Shown: in pieces, positions 2,119 through 44,903 of the stretch | How positions within the stretch are numbered: position 1 is the first letter of the stretch | How the letters are laid out: each line of letters starts with the position of its first letter | Source: Flavobacterium glycines | Lineage (GTDB): Bacteria; Bacteroidota; Bacteroidia; Flavobacteriales; Flavobacteriaceae | Direction of reading: 5' to 3' | DNA length: 64,000 nucleotides | NCBI RefSeq assembly: GCF_900100165.1 | Contig: NZ_FNEO01000004.1 | Location: 62,001 to 126,000 of the forward strand | Notes under the pieces: model-generated | What the model was told of the DNA's origin: nothing | What the model saw: the letters and a program-made list of their open reading frames with translations, nothing else | The model's database searches: none | Made by a program: the position numbers and the translations under genes

Positions 2119-2120
2119 TT

Positions 2121-2147
2121 TGAGTTGTGAGTTGTCAGTTGTCAGTT
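2121..2147. repeat. Heptamer repeat array (3 units)
   Basis: Three units of the type GTTGTSA (reverse strand AACTSAC) directly before the preferred wzt start. They stay open in the wzt frame and would encode T-T-D-N-S-Q-L if translation began at 2178. Confidence 0.8.
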
Positions 2148-3271: not shown

Positions 3272-3704
3272 CGAAAATTCCTGTTTATTGAAATTGAGGC
3301 ACTCATTGTTAATCCTAACATTCCAATTTTCGGCTCCCTTTAGAGATGGGGAAAAACGAAAATTCCTGTTTATTGAAATTGAGGCACTCATTGTTAATCA
3401 TGACATTCCAATTTTCGGCTCCCTTTAGGGATGGGGAAAAACGAAAATTCCTGTTTATTGAAATTAAGACATTCATTGTTAATCCTGACGTCCAATTTTC
3501 GGCTCCCTTTAGGGATGGGGAAAAACGAAAATTCCTGTTTATTGAAATTAAGACATTAATTGTTAATCCTAACATTCCAATTTTCGGCTCCCCTTAGGGA
3601 TGGGGAAAAACGAAAATTCCTGTTTATTGAAATTAAGACATTAATTGTTAATCATGACATTCCAATTTTCGGCTCCCTTTAGGGATGGGGAAAAACGAAA
3701 ATTG
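3272..3704. repeat. Tandem array of five 84-85 bp units with hairpins
   Basis: Units begin with CGAAAATTCC at 3272, 3357, 3442, 3526 and 3611, and a sixth CGAAAATT starts at 3696. Spacings are 85, 85, 84, 85 and 85 bp. Each unit has a linker (CTGTTTATTGAAATT and onward) plus a hairpin whose arms AATTTTCG and CGAAAATT surround GGCTCCCTTTAGGGATGGGG. Copies differ by a few substitutions, so the array is not brand new. The unit length is not a multiple of three; reading frames across it are by-products. Confidence 0.92.
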
Positions 3705-3754
3705 GTGGGTTAGCTGTTGTCAGTTCTGAATAATGCAATAAACTCACAACTCAC

Positions 3755-3802
3755 CGTCATCCTGAGCTAAGCCTGTCCTCAGCTCGACGAAGAATCGAAG
3801 AA
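3755..3802. repeat. GTCATCCTGAGC-type dispersed repeat inside heptamer array
   Basis: A segment beginning CGTCATCCTGAGC and ending GAAGAATCGAAG interrupts heptamers at 3741-3754 and 3806-3917. It belongs to the same broad class as the CACCCTGAGCCTGTCGAAGG element inside the glycosyltransferase gene at 16967-17098. Confidence 0.6.
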
Positions 3803-3805
3803 CAC

Positions 3806-3917
3806 AACTCATAACTCATAACTCATAACTCATAACTCACAACCCACAACCCACAACTCACAACTCATAACTCATAACTCATAACTCACAACTCATAACT
3901 CATAACTCACAACCGAC
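3806..3917. repeat. Heptamer repeat array, 16 uninterrupted units
   Basis: Exactly 112 bases made of 16 seven-base units: AACTCAT, AACTCAC, AACCCAC and AACCGAC. Two more AACTCAC units lie at 3741-3754. This is the longest heptamer array in the window, ending 31 bases before the phosphatase start codon. Confidence 0.95.
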
Positions 3918-3948: not shown

Positions 3949-4686
3949 ATGTTTACATTATTTAAATCCAAACCGATTCTGAAGGATCTTATTCCTGATA
4001 ATCATATTGATATTCATTCTCATTTATTACCTGGAATTGACGATGGGGCTAAAACCTTTGAGGACAGCTTACGTCTTACCCAAGCCTTAAAAAACTTTGG
4101 CATAAAGCAATTTATTACCACGCCACATATCATTCAGCATATTTGGGAAAACACACATGACCAGATTATTGCTAATAAGAACAATACAGTTGAAGCACTT
4201 CGTAAAAGCAATATTAATGTTCCTTTTAAGGCAGCTGCCGAATATTTAATGGACGATCAATTTGTTCGTTTATTTCAATCGAATGATTTATTGACCCTGA
4301 AAGATAATTATGTATTGGTGGAGATGTCGTATATCAATGCACCTATCCAGCTATATTCAATTCTATTCGACTTAAGAGTAGCAGGTTACACCCCTGTTCT
4401 TGCCCATCCGGAACGCTATTTATTTTATCATAAAAATTTTTCAGAATACGACAAACTTAAAAAAGCGGGTTGCCTGTTTCAACTCAACCTGTTAGCTGTA
4501 GTAGGCTATTACGGAGATAATATTGCTAAAATAGCTGAAAGTTTACTACAAAAAGGCATGTATGATTTTGTGGGTTCCGATGTGCATCACAACAATCATA
4601 TTACCGCTTTTGAACAAAAACTAAAAATTAAAGACATCAATCCTCTTAAGGAAATTATTGCCAACAATCAGTTTTTTAAGTTCTAG
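3949..4686 (+). CDS. PHP-family protein-tyrosine phosphatase (CpsB/CapC/YwqE type)
   Basis: A 245-residue cytoplasmic metal-dependent phosphatase that would reverse tyrosine phosphorylation of the Wzc-like kinases. The PHP signature D-I-H-S-H-L-L-P-G lies at residues 21-29, followed by the D-D-G-A-K motif. Further ligand candidates are the TPH near residue 65, the A-H-P-E-R motif near residue 155 and a G-S-D-V-H-H motif near residue 205. It is the only plus-strand gene in the first 46 kb and is separated from its likely substrates (10812-13163 and 42444-44903). Upstream lies a heptamer array; downstream is a convergent repeat-rich gap. Confidence 0.88.
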   Translation: MFTLFKSKPILKDLIPDNHIDIHSHLLPGIDDGAKTFEDSLRLTQALKNFGIKQFITTPHIIQHIWENTHDQIIANKNNTVEALRKSNINVPFKAAAEYLMDDQFVRLFQSNDLLTLKDNYVLVEMSYINAPIQLYSILFDLRVAGYTPVLAHPERYLFYHKNFSEYDKLKKAGCLFQLNLLAVVGYYGDNIAKIAESLLQKGMYDFVGSDVHHNNHITAFEQKLKIKDINPLKEIIANNQFFKF

Positions 4687-8089: not shown

Positions 8090-8097
8090 TTTTTACA

Positions 8098-8155
8098 GTT
8101 ATGGGTTGTGAGTTATGGATTGTGAGTTAAAAACTGACAACCGACAACTGACAAC
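8098..8155. repeat. Inverted pair of heptamer arrays
   Basis: Four units of the GTTATGG/GTTGTGA type (8098-8125) face three units AACTGAC, AACCGAC, AACTGAC (8132-8152). The two arms are nearly complementary, so the transcript could fold into a long imperfect hairpin between rmlB and rmlA. Confidence 0.8.
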
Positions 8156-8172
8156 ATTATTAAATACAAATT

Positions 8173-9288: not shown

Positions 9289-9325
9289 CACTTATAACTT
9301 ATAAGTTATAACTTATAACTTATAA
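9289..9325. repeat. Heptamer repeat array (AACTTAT type)
   Basis: Units AACTTAT, AAGTTAT, AACTTAT, AACTTAT lie at 9296-9323, with a partial unit before them. The array runs into the rmlD stop codon; the last unit supplies the TAA and one Leu codon. Confidence 0.8.
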
Positions 9326-10168
9326 CAGTCTCATGCACTTTTTCAAACTCACCTTATAGTCCGGAACAATTACTCCAAAAGTAGTTTTGATTTTTGTTTT
9401 ATCCAACAAAGAATAAGCCGGACGTTTAGCAGGAGTAGGATATGCTGATGACGGAATACCGTTAATTTCACAATCAAAACCTCCAATTTCTTTAATAGCC
9501 AGAGCAAACTCGTACCAACTTATTTCTCCTTCATTCGAAAAATTATAAATTCCCGATTGCCAATTCGAATGATTGATAATAGTTAGTATTGCTTTTGCTA
9601 AATCGGCGGCATATGTTGGACTTCCTACTTGATCATTAACCACGTTCAAATTGTCTCTTTCCTGCATCAATCGGGACATGGTTTTTACGAAATTATTCCC
9701 AAAACTGGAATACACCCATGAAGTACGAATAATAATCCCATCAGGATTATTTTGCATACAGGCTTTCTCACCTGCTAATTTGGTAACACCATAAACGTTT
9801 ATTGGAGCCGTTGAAGCCTCTTCTGTTAAAGGAATTGCTGAATTACCATCAAAAACATAATCCGTTGAAATATGAATTAGTTTACAATCATTCTCAAAAC
9901 TCCATTTCGCCATAATAGCCACAGCCTGATGATTCAACACATCCGACAATTCATATTCGGACTCTGCTTTATCCACAGCGGTATGAGCAGCACAATTAAT
10001 AATTATATCGGGGTTTATTTTTGAAATTGTATCGGCTAAATTTTTCAAATCACACAAATCCAGTTCCTGATAATCAGTAAAAACCCACTCAAAATTAGTC
10101 CCCGTAGATAAGACTCTCAATTCTGACCCCAATTGTCCATTGGCTCCCGTTACTAGTATTTTTTTCAT
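9320..10168 (-). CDS. rmlD: dTDP-4-dehydrorhamnose reductase
   Basis: Final NADPH-dependent step to dTDP-L-rhamnose. The N-terminal TGANGQLGSE motif binds cofactor, STDYVFDG lies near residue 100, and Y-G-V-T-K supplies the catalytic Tyr and Lys. I start at the ATG at 10168 (MKKILVTGANG), one base past the rmlC stop codon; an earlier in-frame ATG at 10189 would add seven residues and overlap rmlC. The 3' end merges with a heptamer array, so its last codon and stop may be repeat-derived, but the protein length (about 282 residues) is normal. Confidence 0.94.
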   Translation of the reverse strand: MKKILVTGANGQLGSELRVLSTGTNFEWVFTDYQELDLCDLKNLADTISKINPDIIINCAAHTAVDKAESEYELSDVLNHQAVAIMAKWSFENDCKLIHISTDYVFDGNSAIPLTEEASTAPINVYGVTKLAGEKACMQNNPDGIIIRTSWVYSSFGNNFVKTMSRLMQERDNLNVVNDQVGSPTYAADLAKAILTIINHSNWQSGIYNFSNEGEISWYEFALAIKEIGGFDCEINGIPSSAYPTPAKRPAYSLLDKTKIKTTFGVIVPDYKVSLKKCMRLL

Positions 10169-10811: not shown

Positions 10812-13163
10812 TTAAATTTTCAATGTTCTTTTATACCATGGTTTATTTTCTACTTTTACTCCGTAGCCGTAACCATAACCATAGCCTTTAGTAGAATCGG
10901 TATCATTTAACAACATACACATATTAGGCAATTTTTGATCACGATGCAAATTATTAGGTATATCCAACATTCGTTTTTCTAAGAAATTAGCACGGGCAAC
11001 ATAGATAAAAGTATCGGCGTGTTTAGCAATTAACAAAGTATCCGTTACTAAACTTACAGGAGCCGTATCCACAATAATATAATCGTATTGTTTTTTTACA
11101 GTCTCAAAAAACGAATCGACTTTTTTACTCATCAATAATTCAGCCGGATTAGGCGGAATAACACCTGCCGGAAGAATATGAAAATCTTCATAGCCTTTTT
11201 GCTTTATAATTAAATCATCCAAATTTAAATCTTTAGAAGATAAATAATTGGTAAAACCTCTATCCGGTAAAGTTAGATACTCATCTAATTTTGGATTTCT
11301 AATATCCATACCGACCAACAATACTCTCTTTCCTGAAAGCGCAAAAGTAGCAGCTAAATTTACCGAAACAAAAGTCTTTCCTTCTTTTGGAAAGGTTGAA
11401 GTTAAGAAAATAGTTTTGGCTATTCCATCGGGCACCTTACTTAACATAAATTCGAGATTGGTTCGAATGATTCGTAAGGCTTCGGCAGAACTCGTTCTGC
11501 TTTCGGCTTGCATAATAGACGACGCATCCTCAGAAGTAGGCACATCACCAATAAATGGAATTTGTGTCCGCCCTTCTAAATCCAAACGACTTTTGATTTT
11601 AGTATCTAAGAAATCAATTAAGAAAATAATCCCAATAGGAATTAACAAACCTAACAATAAAGCCCCTAAAAAAACCACGCTTCTTCTTACAGTAACAGGA
11701 CCTGTTGATAAGGCTTCATCAATCACTTTCGCATTAGGCTCAGTTGATGATAGTGCCAATGCTGTTTCTTCTCTTTTTTGTAATAAATACAAATACAATT
11801 CTTCTTTTACTTTTTGCTGACGCTCAATCTCTCTAAATTGACGCTCCTGAGAAGGTATTTTCTGAATCTTCCCATTAAAAAGATTTTCATTAGCCTCAAT
11901 ATCTTTCTTTTGAATTTGCAGCATGGCTTTACTTTTTCCTAAACTGGATAAAAGTGTCGATTTCAAACTTGATAATTCCTGATCAATCTTTACTACTGTT
12001 GGATTAGTTTCACTAGCTGACTTTAACAATCTGCTTCTTTCTAAAACCAAGTCATTATAAGAACCTATCAAAGCAGATGCATCACCTTCAAGATCTGAAA
12101 GTAAATTAGCCGGTAATAAATTTTCATTAGAACTTTTTCTCACGTAATCAACAATGGAGTTCAAAACATTCAATTGCACCTGCAAATCAACAGCTTTCTT
12201 ATTATATTCCGTTGATCCGGCAACATACAATCCTACTTCTGTTTCTAAATCAGTTAATTTATTATTAACCTTAAACCTTTCAACATCCTGCTCTACTCCT
12301 GATAACTCTTTACTAATTAACGCTAAACGATTGGACACAAAAACAGAGGTGTTTTTAGAAATGAACTCTTTGTCCGCAACTGCATTTTGGTTGTAGGCTT
12401 GAACCAGACAATCCAAAAACTTTTCAGCCTTTTTTTCTACTCCATCAACAATACTCAACACTACAACATTACTCCCCTTAACCAAAGGTTCAACTACTAA
12501 TCTCCCTCTATAACCTGCCGCTACAGCTTTTAAAGGACTGACAACAATAGACAATGAACCCAGACTAGCTTCTTTAGCATGACTTGATTTGGTAATAATC
12601 AAATCGCCATACTTCGTTTTAATAGCCTCTCCGTATCTAAACTGTCTTTTCCCTGCTATCAATCCATTTTCTTCAGCCAAGGTAAAGGTTCCTGAAGGAT
12701 TATCCGAAAAATCAAACTTCATATATTGCTCATCAAAATCGGGCGTTTGATTAATAAAATGAACTACAATAGGAGATTGTTCTTCAAAAAGTTCCAAATC
12801 TAAAACCTTCCCTTTGGTAATTATTGCAACATTGAAATTTAACTTTTTAACTACAGCTTCTGACAAGCTTCTTGATTTCATTATTTCAATCTCGTCATCA
12901 ACATTTCTGGTTCCTGTATTAAAACCAAGATCTGAAAAGGCAGCTGCTTCAGAAAGTCGCCCTCCTTTTTTAGTATCTTTCATTAAAATTTTAGTCGAAG
13001 CATTATATACGGGAACTGTATATCTTAATTTCAGAAAAGCCAAAACAAGACAAATAAGCACACTTAACACAACCCATTTCCAATGTGCTAAATACTTATT
13101 AATCTCTGCTTTTAAATCAAAATCAGATCCAAAATCTTCCCCCTGCATGTTATTATTCTCCAT
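10812..13163 (-). CDS. wzc: Wzc-like polysaccharide co-polymerase and tyrosine autokinase (first copy)
   Basis: A 783-residue inner-membrane protein that controls chain length and export. An N-terminal Wzz domain has a membrane helix near residues 32-50, followed by a long periplasmic coiled-coil region and a second helix near residues 500-520. The cytoplasmic BY-kinase domain has Walker A F-P-K-E-G-K-T (about 585-592), Walker A' V-G-M-D-I-R-N-P-K and Walker B Y-I-I-V-D-T-A-P. The C-terminus holds the Gly-Tyr run GYGYGYGYG, the likely autophosphorylation site. Only three bases separate it from the upstream wza-like gene. A second copy lies at 42444-44903. Confidence 0.92.
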   Translation of the reverse strand: MENNNMQGEDFGSDFDLKAEINKYLAHWKWVVLSVLICLVLAFLKLRYTVPVYNASTKILMKDTKKGGRLSEAAAFSDLGFNTGTRNVDDEIEIMKSRSLSEAVVKKLNFNVAIITKGKVLDLELFEEQSPIVVHFINQTPDFDEQYMKFDFSDNPSGTFTLAEENGLIAGKRQFRYGEAIKTKYGDLIITKSSHAKEASLGSLSIVVSPLKAVAAGYRGRLVVEPLVKGSNVVVLSIVDGVEKKAEKFLDCLVQAYNQNAVADKEFISKNTSVFVSNRLALISKELSGVEQDVERFKVNNKLTDLETEVGLYVAGSTEYNKKAVDLQVQLNVLNSIVDYVRKSSNENLLPANLLSDLEGDASALIGSYNDLVLERSRLLKSASETNPTVVKIDQELSSLKSTLLSSLGKSKAMLQIQKKDIEANENLFNGKIQKIPSQERQFREIERQQKVKEELYLYLLQKREETALALSSTEPNAKVIDEALSTGPVTVRRSVVFLGALLLGLLIPIGIIFLIDFLDTKIKSRLDLEGRTQIPFIGDVPTSEDASSIMQAESRTSSAEALRIIRTNLEFMLSKVPDGIAKTIFLTSTFPKEGKTFVSVNLAATFALSGKRVLLVGMDIRNPKLDEYLTLPDRGFTNYLSSKDLNLDDLIIKQKGYEDFHILPAGVIPPNPAELLMSKKVDSFFETVKKQYDYIIVDTAPVSLVTDTLLIAKHADTFIYVARANFLEKRMLDIPNNLHRDQKLPNMCMLLNDTDSTKGYGYGYGYGVKVENKPWYKRTLKI

Positions 13164-13166
13164 AAA

Positions 13167-13946
13167 TTATTTTGCAATTACTAATAGAAATGAAACGAAA
13201 GTAACCAATAAAGAACTGATTGTTGTAACTAAAGTAACATCAGGACTAATCGTTCTGTTTTTAGGCTCTACGTATATCACATCATTTTGAGCCAAATAAT
13301 AATACGGAGAATTAATAAAATCGGACTTTGTTACGTCCACCCTAAAAAAAGATTTTACCCCATCAATTTCTCTTATCACTAAGATATTCTTTCTATTGGC
13401 AGTAGTCTTTAAATCCCCTGCCTGAGTTAATGCTTCAATTAAAGTGATTCGGTCAGATTGAACTTTTATAATACTTGCTCCATTGACTTCTCCTTGTACA
13501 GCTACTTTAAAATTCTGAATCCGAACCGTTATTATAGGATCTTTAATATAGGCTCCCAGTTTTTTTTGAAAAAGCGCCAATACTTCTGTTCGGGTTAAAC
13601 CTCCTAATTTTAATTTTCCCAATTCAGGAAAATTAATATAACCATCAGCATCAACTAAATAATCATTAATTACTGATTTATTTCCTCCAACCTGACCCTG
13701 ACCTTCATTTCCAACAACATTTACGGGATTCAAATTAAATGGTGCTGTAACTTTAGGATCTTCGGCTGATATATTAATCTGTAACAAATCATCGGGTTGA
13801 ATTCGTATTTCATAGGAATTCAATTTAGCGGAAGCCATACTATCAATATTCTGATAATAAAGTATGTTTTTTTTAGGAGTACAGGAAAAAAACAAGAGCA
13901 TCAAAAAGAAAAAAACAGCACTTTTCGATAAACAGAAATACTTCAT
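13167..13946 (-). CDS. wza: Wza-like polysaccharide export lipoprotein (first copy)
   Basis: A 259-residue outer-membrane export lipoprotein. A hydrophobic signal ends in LFFSC with Cys22 as the predicted lipidation site. A Poly_export domain follows (I-Q-P-D-D-L-L-Q-I-N-I near residue 50) and then SLBB-type domains. A hydrophobic C-terminal stretch (last 25 residues) may be a membrane anchor; the protein is shorter than E. coli Wza, as is usual in Bacteroidota. It is transcribed with the wzc gene that follows; the promoter at 13967-14000 fits the consensus well. Confidence 0.9.
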   Translation of the reverse strand: MKYFCLSKSAVFFFLMLLFFSCTPKKNILYYQNIDSMASAKLNSYEIRIQPDDLLQINISAEDPKVTAPFNLNPVNVVGNEGQGQVGGNKSVINDYLVDADGYINFPELGKLKLGGLTRTEVLALFQKKLGAYIKDPIITVRIQNFKVAVQGEVNGASIIKVQSDRITLIEALTQAGDLKTTANRKNILVIREIDGVKSFFRVDVTKSDFINSPYYYLAQNDVIYVEPKNRTISPDVTLVTTISSLLVTFVSFLLVIAK

Positions 13947-15926: not shown

Positions 15927-16518
15927 TAAATGGTTCAATTGTAGCAGCATCGGCTGCGTTAATCCCTTCTCTTTTTACTACTTTCAAAATGGTTTTGAAT
16001 AGAATTTTAAAATCCAAAACAAATGAAATATGATCTACATACCAAACATCCAATTCGAATTTTCTATCCCAGGAAATTGCATTACGCCCATTAACCTGTG
16101 CCCAGCCCGTAATTCCTGGCTTCACTTCATGACGCCTATTTTGAAAATCAGAATAAAGGTGTAGGTATTGCGGTAATAATGGTCTTGGCCCTATCAAACT
16201 CATATCCCCTTTGATAACATTGATTAATTGCGGAATCTCATCTAAAGAAGTTTTACGAACAAAAGAACCTATTTTAGTCAAACGCTCAGCATCCGGCAAC
16301 ATCTTTCCGTTTGCATCTTTTTTGTCGTTCATAGTCTTAAATTTGACAATCTTAAAAATCTTCCCATGCAATCCAGGTCGCAACTGAAAGAAAAAAGGCT
16401 TACCCTGATTAGCAAAAAACAAACCAATGGTAACTAACAAAAATAATGGACTTAGCATAACAAATCCTATCATTGATGCTGTAAAATCCAATAAGCGTTT
16501 AAAAAATAATTTATACAC
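15916..16518 (-). CDS. Initiating undecaprenyl-phosphate sugar-1-phosphate transferase (PglC-like)
   Basis: A 200-residue bacterial sugar transferase that loads the first sugar on undecaprenyl phosphate at the inner membrane. A hydrophobic re-entrant helix occupies about residues 12-35, followed by F-K-T-M, then the D-E-I-P-Q-L and G-P-R-P-L-L motifs near residues 107-128. Length fits the minimal PglC type, not the long WbaP/WcaJ type. The start is GTG at 16518, overlapping the upstream glycosyltransferase stop by eight bases. With the genes on either side it forms an assembly unit for a diamino-sugar-primed glycan. Confidence 0.9.
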   Translation of the reverse strand: MYKLFFKRLLDFTASMIGFVMLSPLFLLVTIGLFFANQGKPFFFQLRPGLHGKIFKIVKFKTMNDKKDANGKMLPDAERLTKIGSFVRKTSLDEIPQLINVIKGDMSLIGPRPLLPQYLHLYSDFQNRRHEVKPGITGWAQVNGRNAISWDRKFELDVWYVDHISFVLDFKILFKTILKVVKREGINAADAATIEPFNGN

Positions 16519-17785
16519 TTTTTTCTAATTTTTTATATTCATTCAATATCCCTTCCCATACTACTTTTTGCTCATAACGGGAAACAATCATTGGTCTTGC
16601 ATTCATTTGTAATTGCGAATAAAATTGTGAATCCTTCATTATTTTATTCATTGCTTCCAAAAGTGAATTTGAATTTTTAACAGAAATGATAATTCCGTTG
16701 TCTCCATCAACAATAATTTCATTAGAACCATTAATATCTGTCACAATAGCTGGCAATCCCATGGCACCTGCCTGCAAAACGACATTCGGAAATCCTTCCC
16801 GATAACTTGGAAAAACGAGACAATCAGAAATGGAAAAATAGGAGCGGACGTCTTTTTGGAATCCAACTGAAATAATATTGGGATTGTTCTCTATTTCTTT
16901 TAAGGTTTCAGTTTGTAAGGGATCTAATTCAGTTTCCAGAGGACCTACTAAGAGGAGTTTTAAATTAGACCCTTCGACAGGCTCAGGGTGACAGTGAGCT
17001 GTCGGTTGTGAGTTGTCAGTTGTGATTTGTCGGTTATTCACAACTATGCTCTCGTTCTCAACTACGCTCTGGTTCTCGACTGCGCTCGAACTGACAACTA
17101 AATGCTTAAAAGCATTCACCAATTCGTTTATTCCTTTATCCCCCACTAAGCGACCAACAAAAATAAAAACAAAATCATTTTCGCCAATACACAACTCTTT
17201 TTTTAAGGCTTGTTGCTCCTGAACAGATACTTTCTCTTTTGAAAAATAAGCTGTATCAATTCCGTTGACATTGCCATTAGCTATTACTTTCAAGGGTTTG
17301 GAAGTAATTTTGTACTGTATCAAATCATTTTTGACTCCGTGTCCTTCGGGATAAATATGTGTAGCACAACAACACAAAACCTTATCCATCAGAATCAATA
17401 TTTTTTGTAACAAACCGGTTTTAGAAGGAAAAATCAACCCTGTAAAAGTATGTATACGAACAGGAACACCAGCCATTTTTCCCGCTATCATAGACAACAA
17501 TCCTGCTTTTGGAGTTATCGAATGAACTATTTGTGGTTTTTCTTTTTTGAACAAAAGATACAATTTCCACAAAGACAGCAAGTCTTTTAGCGGACTAATA
17601 TTGCGTTGCATTTGCAACGGAACAGTTCTTACTTGCTCTCGTTCGGCTAACCTCTTTAAATGTTCATCGTCACCAGAAACTGCCACCACTTCAAAATGCC
17701 CGCTCAAAAAAGCCAGTTGTCCTTTGAGCAAGAAATCTAAGGACATCGCTACAGTAGAGGTGCGAATGAGTTTAGGTTGCAGCAT
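16511..17785 (-). CDS. Family 4 glycosyltransferase with in-frame repeat insertion
   Basis: About 424 residues with GT-B fold: N-terminal acceptor domain (I-V-H-S-I-T-P-K-A-G near residue 90) and donor domain with F-V-G-R-L-V-G-D-K-G (209-218) and the E-x7-E type P-S-Y-R-E-G-F-P-N-V motif. Between AFKHL and NLKLLLVGP (residues about 230-273) sits an extra segment encoded by repetitive DNA: three hexapeptides S-x-V-x-N-x, a heptamer-coded T-T-D-N-S-Q stretch and H-P-E-P-V-E-G. It falls in a surface position between secondary elements, so the enzyme may still work. Start chosen at ATG 17785; a TTG at 17806 is the alternative. Confidence 0.88.
   Translation of the reverse strand: MLQPKLIRTSTVAMSLDFLLKGQLAFLSGHFEVVAVSGDDEHLKRLAEREQVRTVPLQMQRNISPLKDLLSLWKLYLLFKKEKPQIVHSITPKAGLLSMIAGKMAGVPVRIHTFTGLIFPSKTGLLQKILILMDKVLCCCATHIYPEGHGVKNDLIQYKITSKPLKVIANGNVNGIDTAYFSKEKVSVQEQQALKKELCIGENDFVFIFVGRLVGDKGINELVNAFKHLVVSSSAVENQSVVENESIVVNNRQITTDNSQPTAHCHPEPVEGSNLKLLLVGPLETELDPLQTETLKEIENNPNIISVGFQKDVRSYFSISDCLVFPSYREGFPNVVLQAGAMGLPAIVTDINGSNEIIVDGDNGIIISVKNSNSLLEAMNKIMKDSQFYSQLQMNARPMIVSRYEQKVVWEGILNEYKKLEKSV
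16967..17098. repeat. Composite repeat insertion within a glycosyltransferase gene
   Basis: 132 bases, a multiple of three. Read on the minus strand it starts with a GTTGTCAG piece, then three 18-bp units (starting GAGCGCAGTCGAGAACCA), then about five heptamers such as AACTGAC and AACTCAC, then CACCCTGAGCCTGTCGAAGG. It keeps the frame open across the coding sequence. Confidence 0.85.
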
Positions 17786-18878
17786 ATACTCTTTGGTATA
17801 ATTCAATATGTTTTTGAATCATATTCTGAATATCATATTGAGCAGCTCTATTCTGACATGCTTCAACAGTTCGTTCATACAAGGTCTTATCCTCTAAAAG
17901 TTCCTGAATTCGTTCTGCCAATTCCTTAGCATTGCCTAATTCAAATAAAACTCCTGCCCCCCCTACAACTTCCGACAAACCTGGAACATCAGACGCAACA
18001 AAAGGTTTTCCTGATGCCATCCCTTCAATAGAAGAAAGTGATAAACCTTCATATTTAGAAGACAATACTATAATATCAGCTGTTTTTAATAATCGAGGAA
18101 TATCCATACGCTGACCTAGAAATACAACTCTTTTATCAAAACCTAATTCAATAACATGATTTTCGCAGTTTTTCAATTCATCACCTTCTCCTACCAAAAC
18201 CACATAATAATTTTCAGGAAGATATTGTAAAGCCTTTACTAATGTCATTTGGTCTTTTCCTTTTCTAAATGCAGAAACTTGTAATATAATTTTCTGTTCT
18301 TGAGTTAATATAGGATGAATTTCTTCTTTATTTCTTGATTTTGCATTCTGAATCATTTCAATATTTACTCCATTATAAATAATTTCTATCGTATTAAATT
18401 GTTTCAAATAGTTATCATAAATATTTTTAATTTCCTCTGTAATACATACTAATTTTTTATATTTAGTATATATCCAAGATTCAAGAGGCTTAAAAATTCT
18501 ATTATTGATTCTTCTATTAGATGTACTATGCTCTGTAAAAATCAATTTACATCTATTTTTAAGAGAAATATTAGCCAAAACAGTAAAATACTGTGCTGGA
18601 AACAAATGTACATGAGCAATATCATAATCTTTAAGATATTTTCTTAATTTTAAAATGTTTCTCGGTGAATAAATATCTTTATAATTCAAAGAATGATTTA
18701 AGACAATCACTTTACAACAATTCAAATCCATTAAGGCTTTTGTAAAAGGATGATTATTTTCCCAAAAAAGCAATAAATCCATTTCAACACCTTCTTTTCG
18801 GTATAAAGGAATAGTGTCTAACAATAATTTTTCAGCACCTCCAGTTCCTAAGGAATTAATAATTTGAAGTACTCGCAT
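17772..18878 (-). CDS. Family 4 glycosyltransferase
   Basis: A 368-residue GT-B enzyme. The N-terminal I-N-S-L-G-T-G-G-A-E-K-L-L motif (residues 8-20) is typical of GT4, and the donor domain has S-K-Y-E-G-L-S-L-S-S-I-E-G-M (E-x7-E near residues 280-290). It should add one sugar to the undecaprenyl-linked repeat unit on the cytoplasmic face. It overlaps the next gene by 14 bases with the start chosen there, and abuts the GT2 gene upstream, indicating one operon. Donor and linkage are not predictable from sequence. Confidence 0.88.
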   Translation of the reverse strand: MRVLQIINSLGTGGAEKLLLDTIPLYRKEGVEMDLLLFWENNHPFTKALMDLNCCKVIVLNHSLNYKDIYSPRNILKLRKYLKDYDIAHVHLFPAQYFTVLANISLKNRCKLIFTEHSTSNRRINNRIFKPLESWIYTKYKKLVCITEEIKNIYDNYLKQFNTIEIIYNGVNIEMIQNAKSRNKEEIHPILTQEQKIILQVSAFRKGKDQMTLVKALQYLPENYYVVLVGEGDELKNCENHVIELGFDKRVVFLGQRMDIPRLLKTADIIVLSSKYEGLSLSSIEGMASGKPFVASDVPGLSEVVGGAGVLFELGNAKELAERIQELLEDKTLYERTVEACQNRAAQYDIQNMIQKHIELYQRVYAAT

Positions 18879-35591: not shown

Positions 35592-36599
35592 TTACTCCAG
35601 CAACTCCGGTTTCTCTACTTCCAACTCATTATACAAATCCTTCACATCCTGCGAATATTCTTTTTGCAAAACCAGATTAGCATTCTCTGTAGCTACCAAA
35701 ATAGTATTTTTCATGCCTATAAAAGCCGTGAAATTTTGAACACCTATTACCATATTGCCGTTTTCATCCACAGGATGCCCTTTAGCCAATAAATAATCAT
35801 AAACGGATTCAAAAGAACCTAAATCAGACCATAAAAACTGCGAATGGATTACTTTGATTTTCTTAGAGCGTTCCATCACCGCATAATCGACACTAATTGC
35901 AGGAATCTCCATAGACAATTCCAAATCTAACTTACCGTTGTCATTATGATCCCAAACTTTTTTAGATTTTTTATAAATCTTAGGCTGAAAATGCTTTAAT
36001 TCTTCTAACAAAACTCCTGCCTTAAAACAAAACATTCCGGAATTCCATAAGAAATTTTTCTTAGCCAAAAATCCTTTAGCAGTCACCAAATTGGGTTTTT
36101 CTCTAAAGGATACAACATTTTCGCCTTTAGCCTCAATGTAACCATAACCCGTCTCTGGTTTAGTAGGTACAATTCCAAAAGTCACAATATTGCCTTCTCC
36201 CGCTTTTTTAATAGCATCTGCTACAGCAATATCATATAAATCTTTCTTTTCGATAATATGATCCATTGGAGTTACAATCAAAATATCCTCCGGATCAGCT
36301 GCAAATGCTGCAAAAGCAATAGCCGCTGCAGTATTACGGGGTGTCGCTTCAACGATATCTAAATAAGGGATATTTTTCTTTTCTAAAATAGCTCTGCTCA
36401 AATCGCAATTATCTATATTCCCTACCACAATTACCTTATCAACGATATCCTGATTACGATCAACCGTCAATTCAAACAAAGACTTGCCATCAAAAATTTC
36501 TAAATATTGTTTGGGTCTGCTCTTACGAGACAAAGGCCACAAACGACTTCCTACACCACCGGTAAGGATTACATGTATAATGTTATGTTTTTTTTCCAT
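35592..36599 (-). CDS. manC: Mannose-1-phosphate guanylyltransferase
   Basis: A 335-residue GDP-mannose pyrophosphorylase without the C-terminal phosphomannose isomerase domain of bifunctional ManC. G-G-V-G-S-R-L-W-P-L-S-R (about residues 14-25) and F-R-E-K-P (about 175) are the signature motifs. It supplies GDP-mannose for the polysaccharide. The gene follows the wecC-like dehydrogenase across a 327-bp repeat-rich gap. Confidence 0.92.
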   Translation of the reverse strand: MEKKHNIIHVILTGGVGSRLWPLSRKSRPKQYLEIFDGKSLFELTVDRNQDIVDKVIVVGNIDNCDLSRAILEKKNIPYLDIVEATPRNTAAAIAFAAFAADPEDILIVTPMDHIIEKKDLYDIAVADAIKKAGEGNIVTFGIVPTKPETGYGYIEAKGENVVSFREKPNLVTAKGFLAKKNFLWNSGMFCFKAGVLLEELKHFQPKIYKKSKKVWDHNDNGKLDLELSMEIPAISVDYAVMERSKKIKVIHSQFLWSDLGSFESVYDYLLAKGHPVDENGNMVIGVQNFTAFIGMKNTILVATENANLVLQKEYSQDVKDLYNELEVEKPELLE

Positions 36600-36602: not shown

Positions 36603-36641
36603 AACTGTTATCAGTTATCGGTTGTCTATCATCGGTTGTTA
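36603..36641. repeat. Heptamer repeat array (degenerate)
   Basis: On the minus strand: AACCGAT, GATAGAC, AACCGAT, AACTGAT, AACAGTT. It starts three bases upstream of the manC ATG. Confidence 0.7.
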
Positions 36642-38580: not shown

Positions 38581-39054
38581 CTATGTTTGCCTAAGTTTCA
38601 TTTTCAAAACACACCCCATGGACTCCAAAAGAAGTACATAATTATCATTCCTGTTCACTTCTCTTACAACAGCCTCATGAGACTTGAAAGGACCGGATTC
38701 CAGAACAACCTTATCACCCACTTGCAGGCTGCTAACCGAAATTTCATATTGATCCGGAGCAGAAAGCCATTTTTTTATAGTATCAATTTCTTCATCACGT
38801 ACAATAGCCGGTTTCCCTAACCAAAAAAGATAACGTACAACACCTGACGACTGAAAAACAAGATTCCTGTCAGCTTCGTTCAAACGAACAAAAACATAAG
38901 AATTAAACAACGGAACTTCTACTTTCTTCTTTCTATCCGACCATTGACGCACTTGAGTAACCAAAGGAGAATAACAATCTATTCCCTTTTGTAGCAATTG
39001 CTCCGCCACCTTCTTCTCCCACTTTGGTTTTGTATATACCACATACCAATTCAT
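38581..39054 (-). CDS. UpxY-family transcription antiterminator (NusG paralogue)
   Basis: A 157-residue NusG-like protein. The NGN domain (residues about 1-105) has M-N-W-Y-V-V-Y-T-K-P-K-W-E-K at the start and R-Y-L-F-W-L-G near residue 90. The C-terminal KOW domain has V-G-D-K-V-V-L-E-S-G-P-F. Such proteins let RNA polymerase read through long capsule operons; in Bacteroides they act on the leader of their own locus. Here the gene stands just before a terminator and the leader of the large operon 38219-14031, which makes that operon the likely target. Confidence 0.9.
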   Translation of the reverse strand: MNWYVVYTKPKWEKKVAEQLLQKGIDCYSPLVTQVRQWSDRKKKVEVPLFNSYVFVRLNEADRNLVFQSSGVVRYLFWLGKPAIVRDEEIDTIKKWLSAPDQYEISVSSLQVGDKVVLESGPFKSHEAVVREVNRNDNYVLLLESMGCVLKMKLRQT

Positions 39055-39098: not shown

Positions 39099-39130
39099 AA
39101 CTGACAACCCACAACTGACAACTAACAACA
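39099..39130. repeat. Heptamer repeat array (4 units)
   Basis: AACTGAC, AACCCAC, AACTGAC, AACTAAC in a row, ending eight bases before the ugd stop codon and upstream of upxY. Confidence 0.85.
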
Positions 39131-39137: not shown

Positions 39138-40529
39138 CTAAGAACCAATCGCCTGATAAACAAAACCTATTTTTTCCAATTCAGCAGCATTTAATATATT
39201 TCTTCCATCAAATACAAAAGCCGGTTTTTGCATAGCATCGTATATTTTTTGCCAATCGTAAGTAACAAACTCATCCCATTCCGTAAGTATCGCTACTGCA
39301 TGAGCTCCTTCACAGGCTTTATAAGGGTTTTCAAATGATACAATGCTTTCCGCATTCTTATCGGCTGTTCTTGTTTGTAAATAATCCAAATCAGCTAATA
39401 CTTTTTTATAGGACACTTTAGGATCATAAACAGCAATCTTTGCATTTTCATTAATCAAATCATCTGCTACATAAATTGCAGCAGATTCTCTGGTATCGTT
39501 GGTGTCTTTTTTAAAAGCCCAGCCTAAAAAAGCAATCTTTTTATCTGAAACTGTATTATAAAGTGTTTTTACAATATTACTTGAAAAGCGTCTTTTTTGG
39601 TGGTCATTCATAATGATTACCTGCTCCCAATAATCAGCTACCTCATTTAGCCCATAGGATTTTGCTATATACACTAAATTCAGTATGTCTTTTTGGAAAC
39701 AGGAACCTCCAAAACCTACCGAAGCTTTAAGAAATTTAGGCCCGATTCGGCTGTCCATTCCAATGGCTCTCGCCACTTCATTTACATCTGCACCGGTTTT
39801 TTCACAAAGTTCAGACATCGCATTAATAGAAGAAATTCTTTGTGCTAAAAAAGCATTAGCTGTCAATTTTGACAATTCCGAAGACCATACATTAGTGGTT
39901 AAAATTTTACCCACAGCAACCCAATTCGCATAAACATCCACCAACGCCTGAATGGCTTTTTGTCCTTCTTCAGTAGTATCTCCTCCAATTAAAATTCGAT
40001 CCGGATGTAACAAATCCTGAACGGCTGTTCCTTCAGCTAAAAACTCAGGATTGGAAAGAATTTGGAATTTCACACCATTTCCTGTATTATCCAAAATACT
40101 CTTAATTGCTTCTGCTGTTCGGACCGGCAAAGTCGATTTTTCTACTACAATTTTATTACTTGTAGAAACTCGGGCAATTTGTCTGGCACACAACTCAATA
40201 TACTTTAAATCGGCCGCCATTCCTTTACCTTTTCCGTAGGTTTTTGTTGGCGTATTTACCGAGATGAAAATCATCTCTGCTTCATCGATGGCTTTATCCA
40301 CTTCTGTAGAAAAGAATAAATTGCGTCCTCTTGCTTCCTTCACTATTTCAGAAAGTCCCGGCTCATAAATTGGAATATTATTAACATCTTCATCATTCCA
40401 GGTTGCAATTCTTTCTTCATTCAAATCCACTACAGTTACCTGTATCTGTGGACATTTTTGTGCTATAATTGCCATTGTAGGACCTCCAACATAGCCCGCA
40501 CCAATGCAACAAATTTTTGTAATTTTCAT
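39138..40529 (-). CDS. ugd: UDP-glucose 6-dehydrogenase
   Basis: A 463-residue enzyme of the longer, animal-type UGDH class rather than the short bacterial form. NAD motif G-A-G-Y-V-G-G-P-T (about residues 10-18), [10 protein letters not shown] near 135, and the catalytic Cys in [10 protein letters not shown] near 275. It makes UDP-glucuronate, a precursor for an acidic polysaccharide. It is transcribed upstream of upxY and flanked on both sides by heptamer arrays. Confidence 0.94.
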
Positions 40530-40534
40530 TTATT

Positions 40535-40618
40535 CTGTTTTTTGTTTTTTGTTTTCTGTTTTCTGTTATCGTTATCTACTAACTGACAACTAACAACCGA
40601 CAACAGATGACAGACAAC
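40535..40618. repeat. Heptamer repeats of two types
   Basis: First a run of seven-base units of the TGTTTTT/TGTTTTC type (40538-40575), then AACTGAC, AACTAAC, AACCGAC, AACAGAT, GACAGAC (about 40580-40614). The array fills the gap between the four-helix-bundle gene and ugd. Confidence 0.75.
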
Positions 40619-40622
40619 ATAT

Positions 40623-40991
40623 TTATATTTTCCAATGTTCTTCTACGTACTTCAGGAAAGAAAAAATTTTAGCTCCCAAAGCATCATATTTTTCATAGAG
40701 CACTTTCATATCATCAGCCAAATAAGGATACAAATTGACTATTTTTTCAATATGATTAAGTGTTTCTAAATTACTTGCATGAGAGTAAACCAAAAATTTA
40801 ATAAAATCATTTTTATACCTTCTACGCCCATAACCCTCTACAATGTTTGTTACGACAGAATCAGAAGACCTTCTAAGCTGACTTCCTAACTCATATAATT
40901 CATATTTTGGCAATTGCAATGACAAAGTATGTCTTTTATAAAACAATTCCATTCCGATGGTATAAATATCCAGATCCTTATAACTTTTCAA
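40623..40991 (-). CDS. Four-helix-bundle protein of the S23/intervening-sequence family
   Basis: A 122-residue all-helical protein related to proteins encoded in 23S rRNA intervening sequences and found as stand-alone genes in many Bacteroidota. K-S-Y-K-D-L-D-I-Y at the start, Q-L-R-R-S-S-D-S-V-V-T-N-I-V-E-G near residue 38 and S-H-A-S-N-L-E-T near residue 72 are family hallmarks. The start is TTG at 40991: an in-frame TAG lies three codons upstream and no ATG fits. It is flanked by heptamer arrays on both sides and has no obvious role in sugar metabolism. Confidence 0.85.
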   Translation of the reverse strand: MKSYKDLDIYTIGMELFYKRHTLSLQLPKYELYELGSQLRRSSDSVVTNIVEGYGRRRYKNDFIKFLVYSHASNLETLNHIEKIVNLYPYLADDMKVLYEKYDALGAKIFSFLKYVEEHWKI

Positions 40992-41035: not shown

Positions 41036-41112
41036 AACTCACAACCCACAACTGACAACCCACAACCGAGAACTGACAACCGAGAACTGACAACCGAGAA
41101 CTGACAACTGAC
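41036..41112. repeat. Heptamer repeat array, 11 units
   Basis: Exactly 77 bases: AACTCAC, AACCCAC, AACTGAC, AACCCAC, then AACCGAG alternating with AACTGAC, ending AACTGAC, AACTGAC. It ends four bases before the epimerase stop codon. Confidence 0.95.
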
Positions 41113-41116: not shown

Positions 41117-42100
41117 CTATCTCAAATTCTCCCAATACCAATCTACCGCTATCTTCAATCCTTCCTGCAAAGAATATTTTGGCTCATACGCTAACAATTC
41201 TTTCGCTTTATCGATACTTGCTAATGAGTGCGGAATATCACCTGCTCTGTTAGGACCGTGAATCACTCCTACATTAGCAATTTCAGAATCATAATTACTC
41301 AGATATTCTTTTAAATAAGCAACCAAATCGTTCAGGGTATTCCTGTCTCCATAAGCGGTGTTATAAACGGTGTTTACCGCCTCCTTTTTATCTGTAGCTA
41401 TCGCCAATTCATTCATTTGAATCACATTGTCGATATAAGTAAAATCACGGGAATAATTCCCCTCTCCGTTAATTGTAATGTCCTCATGTTGCATCAACTG
41501 CATGACAAATTTTGGAATTACTGCAGCATAGGCGCCATTAGGATCTTGCTTTCTTCCAAAAACATTAAAATAACGCAAACCGATGGTTTCAATTCCGTAA
41601 GTCTTACTAAAAATTTCAGCGTATAATTCGTTTACAAATTTGGTAATAGCATAAGGCGAAAGTGGCTTCCCAATAACATCTTCCACTTTTGGCAATCCCA
41701 CCGAATCCCCATAAGTCGAAGAACTGGCTGCATACACAAAACGTTTCACTTTAGCCTCTGTGGCTGCTTGCAGCATATTCAAAAACCCCGAAACATTGAC
41801 ATCATTCGTCGTAACAGGATCTTTTATAGAACGCGGAACCGAACCCAAAGCGGCCTGATGCAGTACATAATCGACTCCTTCAACAGCTTTTTTACAATCC
41901 TCCAAATTTCGAATATCTCCTTCAATCAAAGTAAAATCAGGATTAGAAATACAAGCTGTTAAATTATGACGGTGACCAGTAGCAAAATTATCCAGACAAA
42001 TCACTTTATTTCCTTTGCTTAAAAAATATTCGCAAAGATTTGACCCGATAAAACCGGCTCCTCCTGTTATTAAAATAGTATAATTGGTTATTTCTCGCAT
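41117..42100 (-). CDS. UDP-N-acetylglucosamine 4-epimerase (WbpP/TviC type)
   Basis: A 327-residue extended SDR: NAD motif G-G-A-G-F-I-G-S near residue 13, S-S-S-T-Y-G-D near 125 and catalytic Y-A-I-T-K near 150. The sequence has the WbpP-like L-R-Y-F-N-V-F-G-R-K-Q-D-P-N-G-A-Y-A-A-V-I-P run, which favours N-acetylated substrates over GalE. It would convert UDP-GlcNAc to UDP-GalNAc for the TviB/WbpO-like dehydrogenase. It is 3' of wzc (second copy) across a 343-bp gap. Confidence 0.9.
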   Translation of the reverse strand: MREITNYTILITGGAGFIGSNLCEYFLSKGNKVICLDNFATGHRHNLTACISNPDFTLIEGDIRNLEDCKKAVEGVDYVLHQAALGSVPRSIKDPVTTNDVNVSGFLNMLQAATEAKVKRFVYAASSSTYGDSVGLPKVEDVIGKPLSPYAITKFVNELYAEIFSKTYGIETIGLRYFNVFGRKQDPNGAYAAVIPKFVMQLMQHEDITINGEGNYSRDFTYIDNVIQMNELAIATDKKEAVNTVYNTAYGDRNTLNDLVAYLKEYLSNYDSEIANVGVIHGPNRAGDIPHSLASIDKAKELLAYEPKYSLQEGLKIAVDWYWENLR

Positions 42101-42443: not shown

Positions 42444-44903
42444 CTACGCTTTTCTAATCTTTTTAAGTATTTTTTGGATCAATCCTTTCGGTTTTTCCTC
42501 ATCATGATAACCGTTCGAATATTCTCCATAGCCGTACCCATAGCCATAGCCGTACCCATAAGCAGAACCATATTTTGCTTTATTTTCAAAACCGTTTAAA
42601 ATAATACTCACATTATTCATTTCTCCACGTTTAACCCTGTTGTTTAAAAGAGGAATCATTTCTTTTTTGGTAATATTCTGCCTTACTATATACAAAGTCA
42701 CATCAGCATACTGACCTAATTCCAGGGAATCAGAAACTAATCCAACCGGAGGGGTATCCAAAATAATATAATCATATTCCTTTTTCAATTCTTCCATTAA
42801 ATCCGCCATAGCTTCGCCAATAATTAATTCGGAAGGATTTGGCGGAACAGGTCCGGAAAGAACTACATCCAGAAAAGGAATTTGAGTGTGATTAATTATA
42901 TCCTTTAAACTTTTCTGCTTAATCAAATAATTAACAACCCCAAGATCATTAGACAAATTGAATTCTTCAGCCAATTTGGGTTTTCTCAAATCCAAACCAA
43001 CAATTACTGTTTTCTTTTCGCTTAAAGCAAAAACGGTAGCGATATTTATCGAACAAAAAGTTTTCCCCTCACCACTAATAGACGAAGTAATCATCAACGT
43101 TTTCCCTCCTTCAACATGTTGTTTTTTATACAAAAACTGCAAAGAAGAACGTATAGCTCTGAAAGATTCAGACAAAGCCGATTTAGGTTTCTCAAATACA
43201 GCCAACTCACCTTTATCTTTATAAACGCCCAACACTCCAAGTAAGGGAATTTGAGTTTGTTTACTTACATCTTCCGCTTTTTGAATCGAATTATTGATAA
43301 AAAAGAGGATAAATATAAACACCAAAGGAATAGTGAATCCAAGAAAAACGGCCAACACATAATTAACCGATGTTTTAGGACCTATCAAACCTCCCCCAAC
43401 ATCTTTTGCCGGATCTATAAAATGAATATCTGATAAATTAGCTGCTTTAACAATATTGGCTTCGCTTCTTTTTTGAAGAAAAGTGCTGTAAATATTATCA
43501 CTTAAATCATATTTCCTTTGTATTTTAATCAATTCCTGCTGATCTTCAGGCAATTGCCTGATATTACCCTCGGCCTGATTGATTTTACTATTTACCAATC
43601 CTAAATCAAATTGTAAAGCCGATTTTGCGGAAGCTATATTCTCTAACAAAACACTTTTAACAGCTTCCATCTGACTATCAAATTCTCTAAAAATCTTATC
43701 GCTTTTTACAGCATAGGCCATTTCTGAACGTTGGGTAGAAAGTGCAATCAGCTTAGAAATATTGGCTACAATATTCGGATCATCAATTCCTGCCACCGAT
43801 GGTGCCGGAAGCTTAGAATAATCAACGCTGTTTTTCAAATACGCTTTAAGCGAATTATAGTAAGAAATCTTTCTCGCAATAGCATCTTTTTCTATATCAT
43901 ATTGTGAAATCTTTTCTGAGAACTTGGCTCCTCCGTCTTCTAAATTGGAAACATTTTTTCCTATTTTGAAAGATTTCAATTCTTCTCCGGCTGTTTTTAA
44001 TTGTGATTCCATTGCCACCAAAGTACTGTCAATAAAACCTATTGTATTAGTAGCAAATTGATTTTTGCTGTCTAATTGTCTCTTGATAAGCATTTTTACA
44101 GTCGAATTGAGGTATTCAACCATTCTGGCTTTATTAGTCCCCTGTAATCTTAAAGTTAAAATAGAAGCTCCCTTTTCATCCGGCGTTACACCAACTCCTT
44201 TATAACGGGATACTGTCCCGTTGAAATCATTAAATCGAACAAAATATTCTCTCCCTTTGTAAAAACCCGGATTATCATTTATGAATAATTTCCAATGTAA
44301 AAAAGGCAAAGAAACCTGCTCTCCTACCCTATATTTTTTAACAAAATCTCCCATTTCCACATTTGCAGAACCATAGGAATTATCCAAATAGTTAATTAAT
44401 GAAACCGAATTACTTTGAAACGGAATTTTAATTTGATATTCTGATTCCGTTAGAAAAGTAATACTAATCAAGTTTCCTGCTAACTGAGCCTTATCTTTAT
44501 CGATACTCACATAAAATGGAACAGCACCATAGGCATCGACCATATTGTACTCTTTTTGCTCTAAATAATCAATATAGAACTGTAATTTATCCACCACTAA
44601 TTCATTATGAGAACGGGATTGTAAAGTAGTAGAAACAGTTTGCATTTGATCAGAAACGCCTCCCCAGTTAAAAGTCAGACTGGTATTAGAGGTAAACAAG
44701 GGATTACTTTCTTCCTTAATAGAAATCAAAGTTTCCATTTCGTAAATTTTTTCCTTACGAATATTTACCTGATAGGCAATGGTTACAGCAATAATCAAAC
44801 TTACCAAAAACAATTTCCAATAGCTCAATATCTTAATTAATAAGCCTTTGAAATCAAAACTAACTTGGTTTTCAAAAATGGAAAAGTCTTTTATATCTAA
44901 CAT
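42444..44903 (-). CDS. wzc: Wzc-like polysaccharide co-polymerase and tyrosine autokinase (second copy)
   Basis: An 819-residue homologue of the gene at 10812-13163 but clearly diverged. Wzz-type N-terminus with a membrane helix near residues 30-50, long coiled-coil periplasmic part, second helix near 525-545, then the BY-kinase domain: Walker A S-G-E-G-K-T (about 607-612), Walker A' V-G-L-D-L-R-K-P-K, Walker B Y-I-I-L-D-T-P-P. The tail has the longer run AYGYGYGYGYGYGEY before a basic end. It follows its wza partner by 16 bases. Confidence 0.92.
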   Translation of the reverse strand: MLDIKDFSIFENQVSFDFKGLLIKILSYWKLFLVSLIIAVTIAYQVNIRKEKIYEMETLISIKEESNPLFTSNTSLTFNWGGVSDQMQTVSTTLQSRSHNELVVDKLQFYIDYLEQKEYNMVDAYGAVPFYVSIDKDKAQLAGNLISITFLTESEYQIKIPFQSNSVSLINYLDNSYGSANVEMGDFVKKYRVGEQVSLPFLHWKLFINDNPGFYKGREYFVRFNDFNGTVSRYKGVGVTPDEKGASILTLRLQGTNKARMVEYLNSTVKMLIKRQLDSKNQFATNTIGFIDSTLVAMESQLKTAGEELKSFKIGKNVSNLEDGGAKFSEKISQYDIEKDAIARKISYYNSLKAYLKNSVDYSKLPAPSVAGIDDPNIVANISKLIALSTQRSEMAYAVKSDKIFREFDSQMEAVKSVLLENIASAKSALQFDLGLVNSKINQAEGNIRQLPEDQQELIKIQRKYDLSDNIYSTFLQKRSEANIVKAANLSDIHFIDPAKDVGGGLIGPKTSVNYVLAVFLGFTIPLVFIFILFFINNSIQKAEDVSKQTQIPLLGVLGVYKDKGELAVFEKPKSALSESFRAIRSSLQFLYKKQHVEGGKTLMITSSISGEGKTFCSINIATVFALSEKKTVIVGLDLRKPKLAEEFNLSNDLGVVNYLIKQKSLKDIINHTQIPFLDVVLSGPVPPNPSELIIGEAMADLMEELKKEYDYIILDTPPVGLVSDSLELGQYADVTLYIVRQNITKKEMIPLLNNRVKRGEMNNVSIILNGFENKAKYGSAYGYGYGYGYGYGEYSNGYHDEEKPKGLIQKILKKIRKA

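Follow-up and report, generated by a model that had tools for sequence, protein, structure and literature searches.

The analysed stretch of 64,000 nucleotides from Flavobacterium glycines (positions 62001-126000 of contig C6; the window throughout) carries a polysaccharide locus, in which short arrays of tandem seven-base units of the type AACYSAY are found (Table 1). The window gene names wzm, wzt, rfbA and rfbB are taken from Pfam matches; the names folD, hisH, sdhB, RsmE, DUF4159 and TerC-like were read by eye from the ORF sequences. A gene for an S23 protein lies between arrays and, with them, between the epimerase and the UDP-sugar dehydrogenase genes. RNA folding predicts that the rfbB-rfbA gap (8090-8172) forms a hairpin with one mismatch per 7 nt (z -3.4), and that the gap downstream of the S23 gene (40530-40622) also folds as a hairpin (z -4.6).

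Table 1 Heptamer arrays, associated repeats and the S23 gene in the window
Feature	Position	Strand	Remarks
Array in the wzm-wzt gap (2116-2295)	2120-2147	-	Abuts the start codon of wzt (ABC-transporter ATPase); AACYSAY units at 2127-2147 by pattern search
Two further AACYSAY units	3741-3754	+	Pattern match
REP-like palindromic insert, 51 nt	3755-3805		Within the main array region; from sequence
Main array, 16 AACYSAY units	3806-3917	+	Upstream of capC (CpsB/CapC, 3949-4686)
Inverted array pair, rfbB-rfbA gap	8101-8152	8101-8114 minus, 8132-8152 plus	
AACTTAT/ATAAGTT heptamer array, rmlD-rfbB gap	9290-9326		From sequence
Three AACYSAY units	17001-17021	-	In frame within the glycosyltransferase ORF 16511-17806
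Two AACYSAY units	36610-36623	-	10 nt upstream of the nucleotidyltransferase gene (35592-36599)
Array by the UDP-sugar dehydrogenase gene	39099-39126	+	11 nt past the stop codon (gene 39138-40529, minus); AACYSAY units at 39099-39119 by pattern search
Downstream side of the S23 element	40533-40608		AACAGAA-type 40533-40567 minus, AACTGAC-type 40581-40608 plus
S23 protein gene	40623-40991	-	PF05635 (23S_rRNA_IVP), four-helix bundle, E 8e-21
Upstream side of the S23 element, array of 11 units	41036-41112	+	4 nt from the stop codon of the epimerase gene (41117-42100); AACYSAY runs at 41036-41063 and 41099-41112

Several of these features had been described in an earlier note on this DNA. Its 16 unbroken copies at 3741-3917 are present, but the unbroken run occupies 3806-3917 only, and the units at 3741-3754 are split off by the 51-nt insert. 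Runs of at least two AACYSAY units were found at most of the further sites that it listed. The exceptions are 9289-9325, which holds AACTTAT/ATAAGTT and no AACYSAY unit, and 40535-40567, which holds AACAGAA/AACAAAA instead; the units at 17001-17021 are genuine but lie inside the glycosyltransferase ORF rather than between genes. The confinement of runs of at least two units to the first 42 kb of the window was borne out.

Other repeats and genes of the locus were also recorded. The repeats in the glycosyltransferase ORF lie in frame between its two domains (about residues 240-285) and are composed of an 18-bp tandem repeat, heptamers and a REP-like palindrome. An 85-bp unit is repeated 5.1 times at 3272-3703 and contains a palindrome around CCCTTTAGGGATGGGG; this motif was counted 3 times and a related one 4 times in the window, with neither present in an 800-kb sample. 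That sample was placed by hand, with stretches partly shifted off array regions already fetched, and was therefore dropped as a density control and used as the source of ordinary gaps and genes only. A NusG-family gene, which we presume to be comparable to the UpxY antiterminators of Bacteroides, lies at 38581-39054 within the polysaccharide locus. A polysaccharide export/kinase-like module (Poly_export and AAA_31/GNVR) occurs twice in the locus, at 10812-13946 and 42444-45708.

Across the 3.94-Mb genome (G000), the three-unit AACYSAY pattern gave 40 overlapping matches, corresponding to 21 distinct arrays, whereas the reversed control pattern gave none. The looser pattern of three AACNNAN units gave 105 matches vs. 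11 for its control; the looser arrays analysed below are among the matches listed. Six of the 21 arrays lie in the 64-kb window (1.6% of the genome, P = 8e-7); a reader had picked this window, so the probability does not come from a blind comparison. Outside it, 15 arrays are scattered across 3.88 Mb and include those before folD, a TerC-like gene and a DUF4159-like gene. The view of a repeat system belonging to the polysaccharide locus thus holds for the spread of the family over the locus and its enrichment there, but not for locus specificity. Equal density in all intergenic regions, with no variation between strains, had been named as the mark of a neutral background repeat. The densities differ (6 arrays in 64 kb vs. 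15 in the other 3.88 Mb), and at the level of sister species, with one genome per species, orthologous gaps differ between G000 and G189. Tandem 7-bp units are mostly intergenic, with six of 45 G000 arrays among the matches listed inside ORF calls. The word TAACTGA, in the form AACTGAT, makes up two of the 111 interior units in G000 when unit counting is seeded on AACYSAY pairs, and is used in some other Bacteroidota genomes. The unit statistics demand three of the four fixed positions and so cannot show constraint. In another genome (G017), one array cluster on contig C24 lies among polysaccharide genes, with five of six scanned proteins matching DegT, Wzz, Poly_export/SLBB, nucleotidyltransferase or UDPG dehydrogenase families, and none of the four proteins scanned at a cluster on contig C15 matches those polysaccharide families. 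The same genome contains five arrays of at least five units, spaced at exactly 100 bp from start to start (L217, 12019-12481), forming a higher-order repeat.

The arrays have a defined polarity towards gene borders. When the AAC strand is read from left to right, 32 of the 38 scored G000 arrays lie nearer to the right-hand gene border and six show the opposite (p 2.4e-5). The scored arrays have at least two AACYSAY or at least three AACNNAN units and are among the matches listed; arrays inside ORF calls or lacking a neighbour on either side were left out (7/45 in G000, 18/89 elsewhere), a simple ORF caller supplied the borders, and arrays sharing a gap were counted separately. Four other Flavobacterium genomes showed the same but weaker polarity (50 vs. 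20, one tie). In agreement with the remark that most arrays abut a start or stop codon, the distance to the border is 15 nt or less for 26/38 on the AAC 3' side and for 1/38 on the other side. Where both arms are present, their order is stop codon, GTT units, AAC units, start codon. Base composition as the cause of the polarity explains only part of it, since ordinary gaps have a mild excess of C over G before starts and no G/C difference at stops.

Two explanations bear directly on this polarity. The arrays might be regulatory repeats, those before start codons binding a protein or tuning translation, with persistent hairpins acting as terminators or attenuators and copy number possibly switching expression. 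In 25 of the 38 arrays a start codon lies on the AAC side, within 15 nt in 16 of them, and MacGregor suggested translational control for the related TAACTGA repeats (PMC4679880). However, the arrays face stop codons with the same polarity in the remaining 13 (10 within 15 nt), and we regard the regulatory explanation as quite improbable. Alternatively, the arrays might be scars of end repair, in which the 3' ends at a double-strand break receive G-strand heptamers from a telomerase-like or polymerase activity before they are joined. Such scars alone would yield the observed arm order, with the G-arm left and the C-arm right, in any gap, but selection at the RNA level predicts the same order and the S23 gene is left unexplained; an origin of this kind is extremely improbable.

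The S23 gene was followed in related genomes. S23 genes are present in 47 of the 60 genomes of the relatives set, with 11 matches in G000; among the S23 matches listed, six have an internal stop and the rest are open. In many of the 63 loci whose flanks were read, short tandem repeats stand on both sides of the gene, and the repeated word differs between elements. After removal of the duplicate loci L018, L102 and L126 before counting, 62 of the 63 loci were scored (one was dropped for a short flank); seven of these represent genera of the order other than Flavobacterium. Each upstream flank was compared, in inverted orientation, with the downstream flank of the same locus; the mean score was 20.3, vs. 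10.3 for mismatched partners. Clear inverted flanks, above the 99th percentile, were found at 25 of the 62 S23 loci and at five of 174 ordinary small genes, a control not purged of S23 genes. The other 37 S23 loci are without clear inverted flanks, the S23 locus of the window being among the weak ones (inverted score 12.2, with 14 other partners equally good), and 31/62 have neither inverted nor direct similarity. The S23 flanks show excess matches at lags 7 and 14, with lag-7 values of 1.33/1.40 compared with 1.00-1.03 in controls, and strong period 7 was found in 34/124 S23 flanks vs. 3/368 intergenic stretches. The S23 gene is co-directional with both neighbours in 58 of 61 loci of the Flavobacterium order, which is what transcription of an element together with the surrounding operon would lead one to expect. 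Within G000, two of the nine S23 genes with flanks read (of the 11 matches) adjoin AAC-type arrays.

The explanation that we favour, and hold to be moderately probable, is that the heptamer arrays form the arms of hairpin elements that resemble the intervening sequences (IVS) of 23S rRNA, are associated with S23 and lie in the gaps between genes. A full element would consist of a 5' arm of tandem G-containing heptamers, the S23 gene, and a 3' arm of complementary C-containing heptamers. Many copies would be without the S23 gene and reduced to one or both arms, and the elements would sit mostly inside operons. AACYSAY would be a common word in this species, with other words of the same length used in other species and at other sites. 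The arms may form a stem in the mRNA that is tolerated, or processed there as the 23S rRNA IVS is by RNase III. The S23 protein, a pentamer in a solved relative, may promote the retention or spread of the element, perhaps through binding to its arms. Slippage combined with template switching between the arms may keep the arms alike and change the word; arms that are alike within an element and different between elements fit slippage with copying from arm to arm. Mobility, RNA processing and S23 binding are proposed parts of the model, and no transposition, insertion event, RNA product or binding was observed in the sequence comparisons.

The order of events could also be reversed. Heptamer microsatellites might arise in gaps first, with S23 being a mobile gene that lands in arrays and splits them, and direct flank similarity at 12 of the 62 S23 loci, six of them with direct similarity only, agrees with such splitting. 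Splitting of an array should leave copies in direct orientation, unless S23 mostly lands in hairpin arrays, whereas inverted flanks are twice as common as direct ones (25 vs. 12 of 62). We hold the arrays-first order to be rather unlikely.

Several refinements of the element explanation were considered and abandoned. A tight coupling between S23 lineage and word is not supported, the correlation between the similarity of S23 proteins and the word being weak (Mantel r 0.125, p 0.011). A hairpin on each side of the S23 gene, which would give solo arrays an origin like that of solo LTRs, occurs in L132 and L275 but is not enriched. A mismatch every 7 nt, as in the window hairpin, is not a general design: it accounts for 2/2 successive distances in the window, 9/26 at the hisH gap and 1/9 at the folD gap, and for 6/107 in S23 arms vs. 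4/81 in the control.

Comparison of the same gaps among relatives showed that S23 genes and arrays can alternate at one site. The window arrays in the wzm-wzt and rfbB-rfbA gaps are without an S23 gene. In 31 other loci in which the two genes could be located, the wzm-wzt gap holds an S23 gene in nine, measures -1 to 0 nt in six and contains other sequence in 16; by sequence, the S23 genes there form two groups, whose words are of the GTTGTGA and GTGAATA types. The rfbB-rfbA gap in 12 loci holds an S23 gene in two (L154, L172) and an ORF that reads by eye as GxxExxY in five. Genes flanking arrays also flank S23 genes in 7/74 entries vs. 6/632, the seven entries representing five distinct proteins at three gaps, two in the over-sampled capC locus and one beside a G000 S23 gene.

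The gap before capC, where the main array lies, was also compared among relatives. The capC relatives are nearly all labelled Flavobacterium or Flavobacteriaceae, and a strong period-7 stretch was found in 11 of 80 capC upstream regions vs. 34 of 506 other genes of the same loci. AAC-type arrays account for five of the 80, and others have ACTGATC or AACTTCT words; no S23 gene was found within 1 kb upstream of capC in the 80 relatives. About 20 nt after the main array stands a TAnnTTTG box, which recurs at the capC gap of relatives and which we take to be the Bacteroidota -7 motif. The array is upstream of this box, but nothing ties its copy number to the box, and a reading of the main array as a promoter or phase-variation repeat was set aside.

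The hisH, folD, sdhB and DUF4159 gaps of G000 were followed in 30 close homologues each, with gaps under 50 nt dropped (hisH 3/31, DUF4159 13/30). At the hisH gap, 26/28 fold with z below -2 and the lag-7 value is 1.63. The words there include AAGTTTC, AAGTCTT, AAGCTTA and AAATCTA, that of G000 is AACAAAC, and two gaps contain C-run/G-run palindromes instead; the ORF preceding hisH is hisB in 24/31 and another ORF otherwise. At the folD gap, 25/30 fold with z below -2, with a lag-7 value of 1.47. The sdhA-sdhB gap contains an S23 gene in four of 30 cases, G000 included, and the other 26 show a lag-7 value of 1.61, a lag-8 value of 1.32 and z below -2 in 19. The sister genome G189, whose SdhB is 99.6% identical, has no S23 gene at this gap but a TAATACT-type array that does not fold (z 0.2). 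Control co-directional gaps gave z below -2 in 36/80 and a lag-7 value of 1.04. The DUF4159 gap behaves differently: arrays are not kept, occurring only in G000, G189 and G005 among the 30, and z is below -2 in 8/17. Of the other 27 gaps, 13 are of 42 nt or less, about nine have GTCAT-type palindromes and the rest other sequence, and the array site looks recent. The word there is of the AAC type in G000 and of the CTAAGGA type in G189 and G005, so that the sisters G000 and G189 differ in word at both the DUF4159 and the sdhB gaps.

These gaps bear on the regulatory explanation as well. As judged by eye, a T run stands behind several of the stems at the folD gap, which may be terminators. However, the word is not conserved at orthologous gaps, and the ordinary co-directional gaps fold less well and are without period 7. 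The gaps also bear on neutral slippage, in which microsatellites survive where their cost is low and S23 simply occupies the same permissive gaps. Heptanucleotides are the most abundant long simple repeats in most surveyed genomes, and polymerase slippage has been proposed for them (Mrazek 2007, via PMC4679880); indels in multiples of 7 between close Cyanothece strains are described in the same source (PMC4679880), and REP-like palindromes share the same gaps here. Neutral slippage does not lead one to expect the polarity at borders, when ordinary gaps lack G/C polarity at stops, nor complementary arms, nor hairpins at orthologous gaps with a changed word, and we regard it as distinctly unlikely.

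The association of S23 genes with periodic flanks extends beyond the genus. In a sample of the phylum with 29 S23 loci (three from Flavobacterium), the own inverted score is 14.7 vs. 9.2, with 11/29 above the 99th percentile, and the lag-7 values are 1.19/1.26, reported without a separate control. From cyanobacterial plasmids, 16 of 41 matched records were taken, mostly from the top of the match list. Their 16 S23 loci gave an own score of 18.1 vs. 10.3 for mismatched partners and lag-7 values of 1.41/1.44, with strong period 7 in 16/32 flanks vs. 3/75 control stretches from two Nostoc plasmids. Taken as groups, the S23 genes of the three samples (Flavobacterium and its order, wider Bacteroidota, cyanobacterial plasmids) are flanked by sequence with period 7 (lag-7 1.19-1.44 vs. 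1.00-1.04 in controls). The words flanking the cyanobacterial plasmid genes include AGTAGGG, AACAGGG, AGGGTGT and AAAAGGG, which we take to resemble the classical heptamer repeats of that phylum. The earlier note had likened the arrays to cyanobacterial heptamer repeats, a likeness that is supported here and given a concrete common factor in the S23 gene.

The wider samples are less favourable in other respects. The direction of the cyanobacterial S23 gene agrees with both neighbours in 10/16 loci, with one in 2/16 and with none in 4/16. This failure of co-direction in part of the cyanobacterial loci, together with the possible terminator role, slightly lowered our confidence in the element explanation. 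In Pseudanabaena (L347), nearly the same word stands in the same direction on both sides of the S23 gene, as a split array would have it. The relatives set, G000 included, suggested a strict dependence of AAC arrays on S23 (21/47 S23-positive vs. 0/13 S23-negative genomes), but this was not upheld in the phylum sample, where the arrays are present in 14/90 S23-positive and 2/28 S23-negative genomes (G146, G161). AAC arrays in genomes without an S23 match again agree with the arrays-first order.

Comparisons with known systems place the elements near the 23S rRNA IVS. In Leptospira and Coxiella, the IVS consists of an S23 ORF between stem-forming terminal inverted repeats, has been termed selfish and is excised from the rRNA by RNase III (PMC4990558). 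Like the IVS, the present elements are small and contain an S23 ORF; terminal inverted repeats around it are clear at 25 loci and not at the other 37 of the 62, and are weak in the window copy. In contrast to the IVS, they lie between protein-coding genes, and their arms are tandem heptamers of changing sequence. The S23 gene of the window occupies the gap between the epimerase and UDP-sugar dehydrogenase genes and not a 23S rRNA helix. With the defining rRNA site lacking in the window copy, the heptamer/S23 elements appear to work like the IVS while falling outside the 23S rRNA IVS family.

The arms in turn have likenesses among known heptamer repeats. Cyanobacterial STRR heptamers were reportedly described by Mazel and colleagues and, to our knowledge, are known as repeats only; here, tandem 7-bp words such as AGTAGGG flank S23 on cyanobacterial plasmids. 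TAACTGA direct repeats have been reported in Beggiatoaceae, cyanobacteria and five Bacteroidetes (PMC4679880). They share with the present arrays the period, the word family, a mostly intergenic location and a frequent position directly before start codons, and in some species they are mixed with other heptamers; they differ in that one inverted repeat is reported in the main genome of that study (PMC4679880). The GGGAATC and GGGGA(C/T)T heptamers of Xanthomonas and Nostoc are intergenic and were studied as G-quadruplex formers, with 70 and 75 close inverted heptamer pairs in two Xanthomonas genomes as a likeness to the arms (PMC4692102); one S23 structure comes from Xanthomonas campestris (PMC4990558). 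A word search showed that S23, four helix and intervening sequence are absent from the main texts of both PMC4679880 and PMC4692102, and among the papers listed in a literature search no title or abstract opening linked heptamer arrays with S23. Heptamer repeats in several phyla and S23 elements in rRNA were already known, and what appears to be new here is their association.

A broader proposal concerns the heptameric repeats that lie between genes in Bacteroidota and cyanobacteria and have gone without an explanation for decades: they would be arms belonging to a single widespread class of selfish hairpins, centred on S23 proteins and inserted between genes. We put it forward tentatively and think it somewhat doubtful. 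Under such a single class, the stem would be kept by selection or by arm-to-arm copying while the word turns over in the time that species take to diverge, and a second branch would comprise the GxxExxY genes (PF13366), whose arms have a period of 9-11. If true, it would join two puzzles, that of heptamers scattered over cyanobacteria, Bacteroidota and a few gammaproteobacteria and that of the role of S23 outside rRNA genes. It would predict the locations of new elements and name a partner protein for binding. The sdhB, hisH and folD gaps would become sites for studying word replacement, in which a hairpin persists as its sequence changes, and such arrays should not be taken readily for phase-variation or promoter repeats.

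Two further sets of loci were recorded. GxxExxY genes (PF13366, L311-L340), of which 25/30 loci were kept and the others dropped for an unclear motif or short flanks, have inverted flanks with an own score of 21.8 vs. 11.8 for mismatched partners and 11/25 above the 99th percentile; excess matches in their flanks are absent at lag 7 and weak at lags 9-11. The S23 gene lies between cas6 and cas4 in Anabaena sp. 90 and Pseudanabaena galeata (L344, L347), and between cas10 and a cmr3-type gene in Picosynechococcus PCC 7003 (L348).
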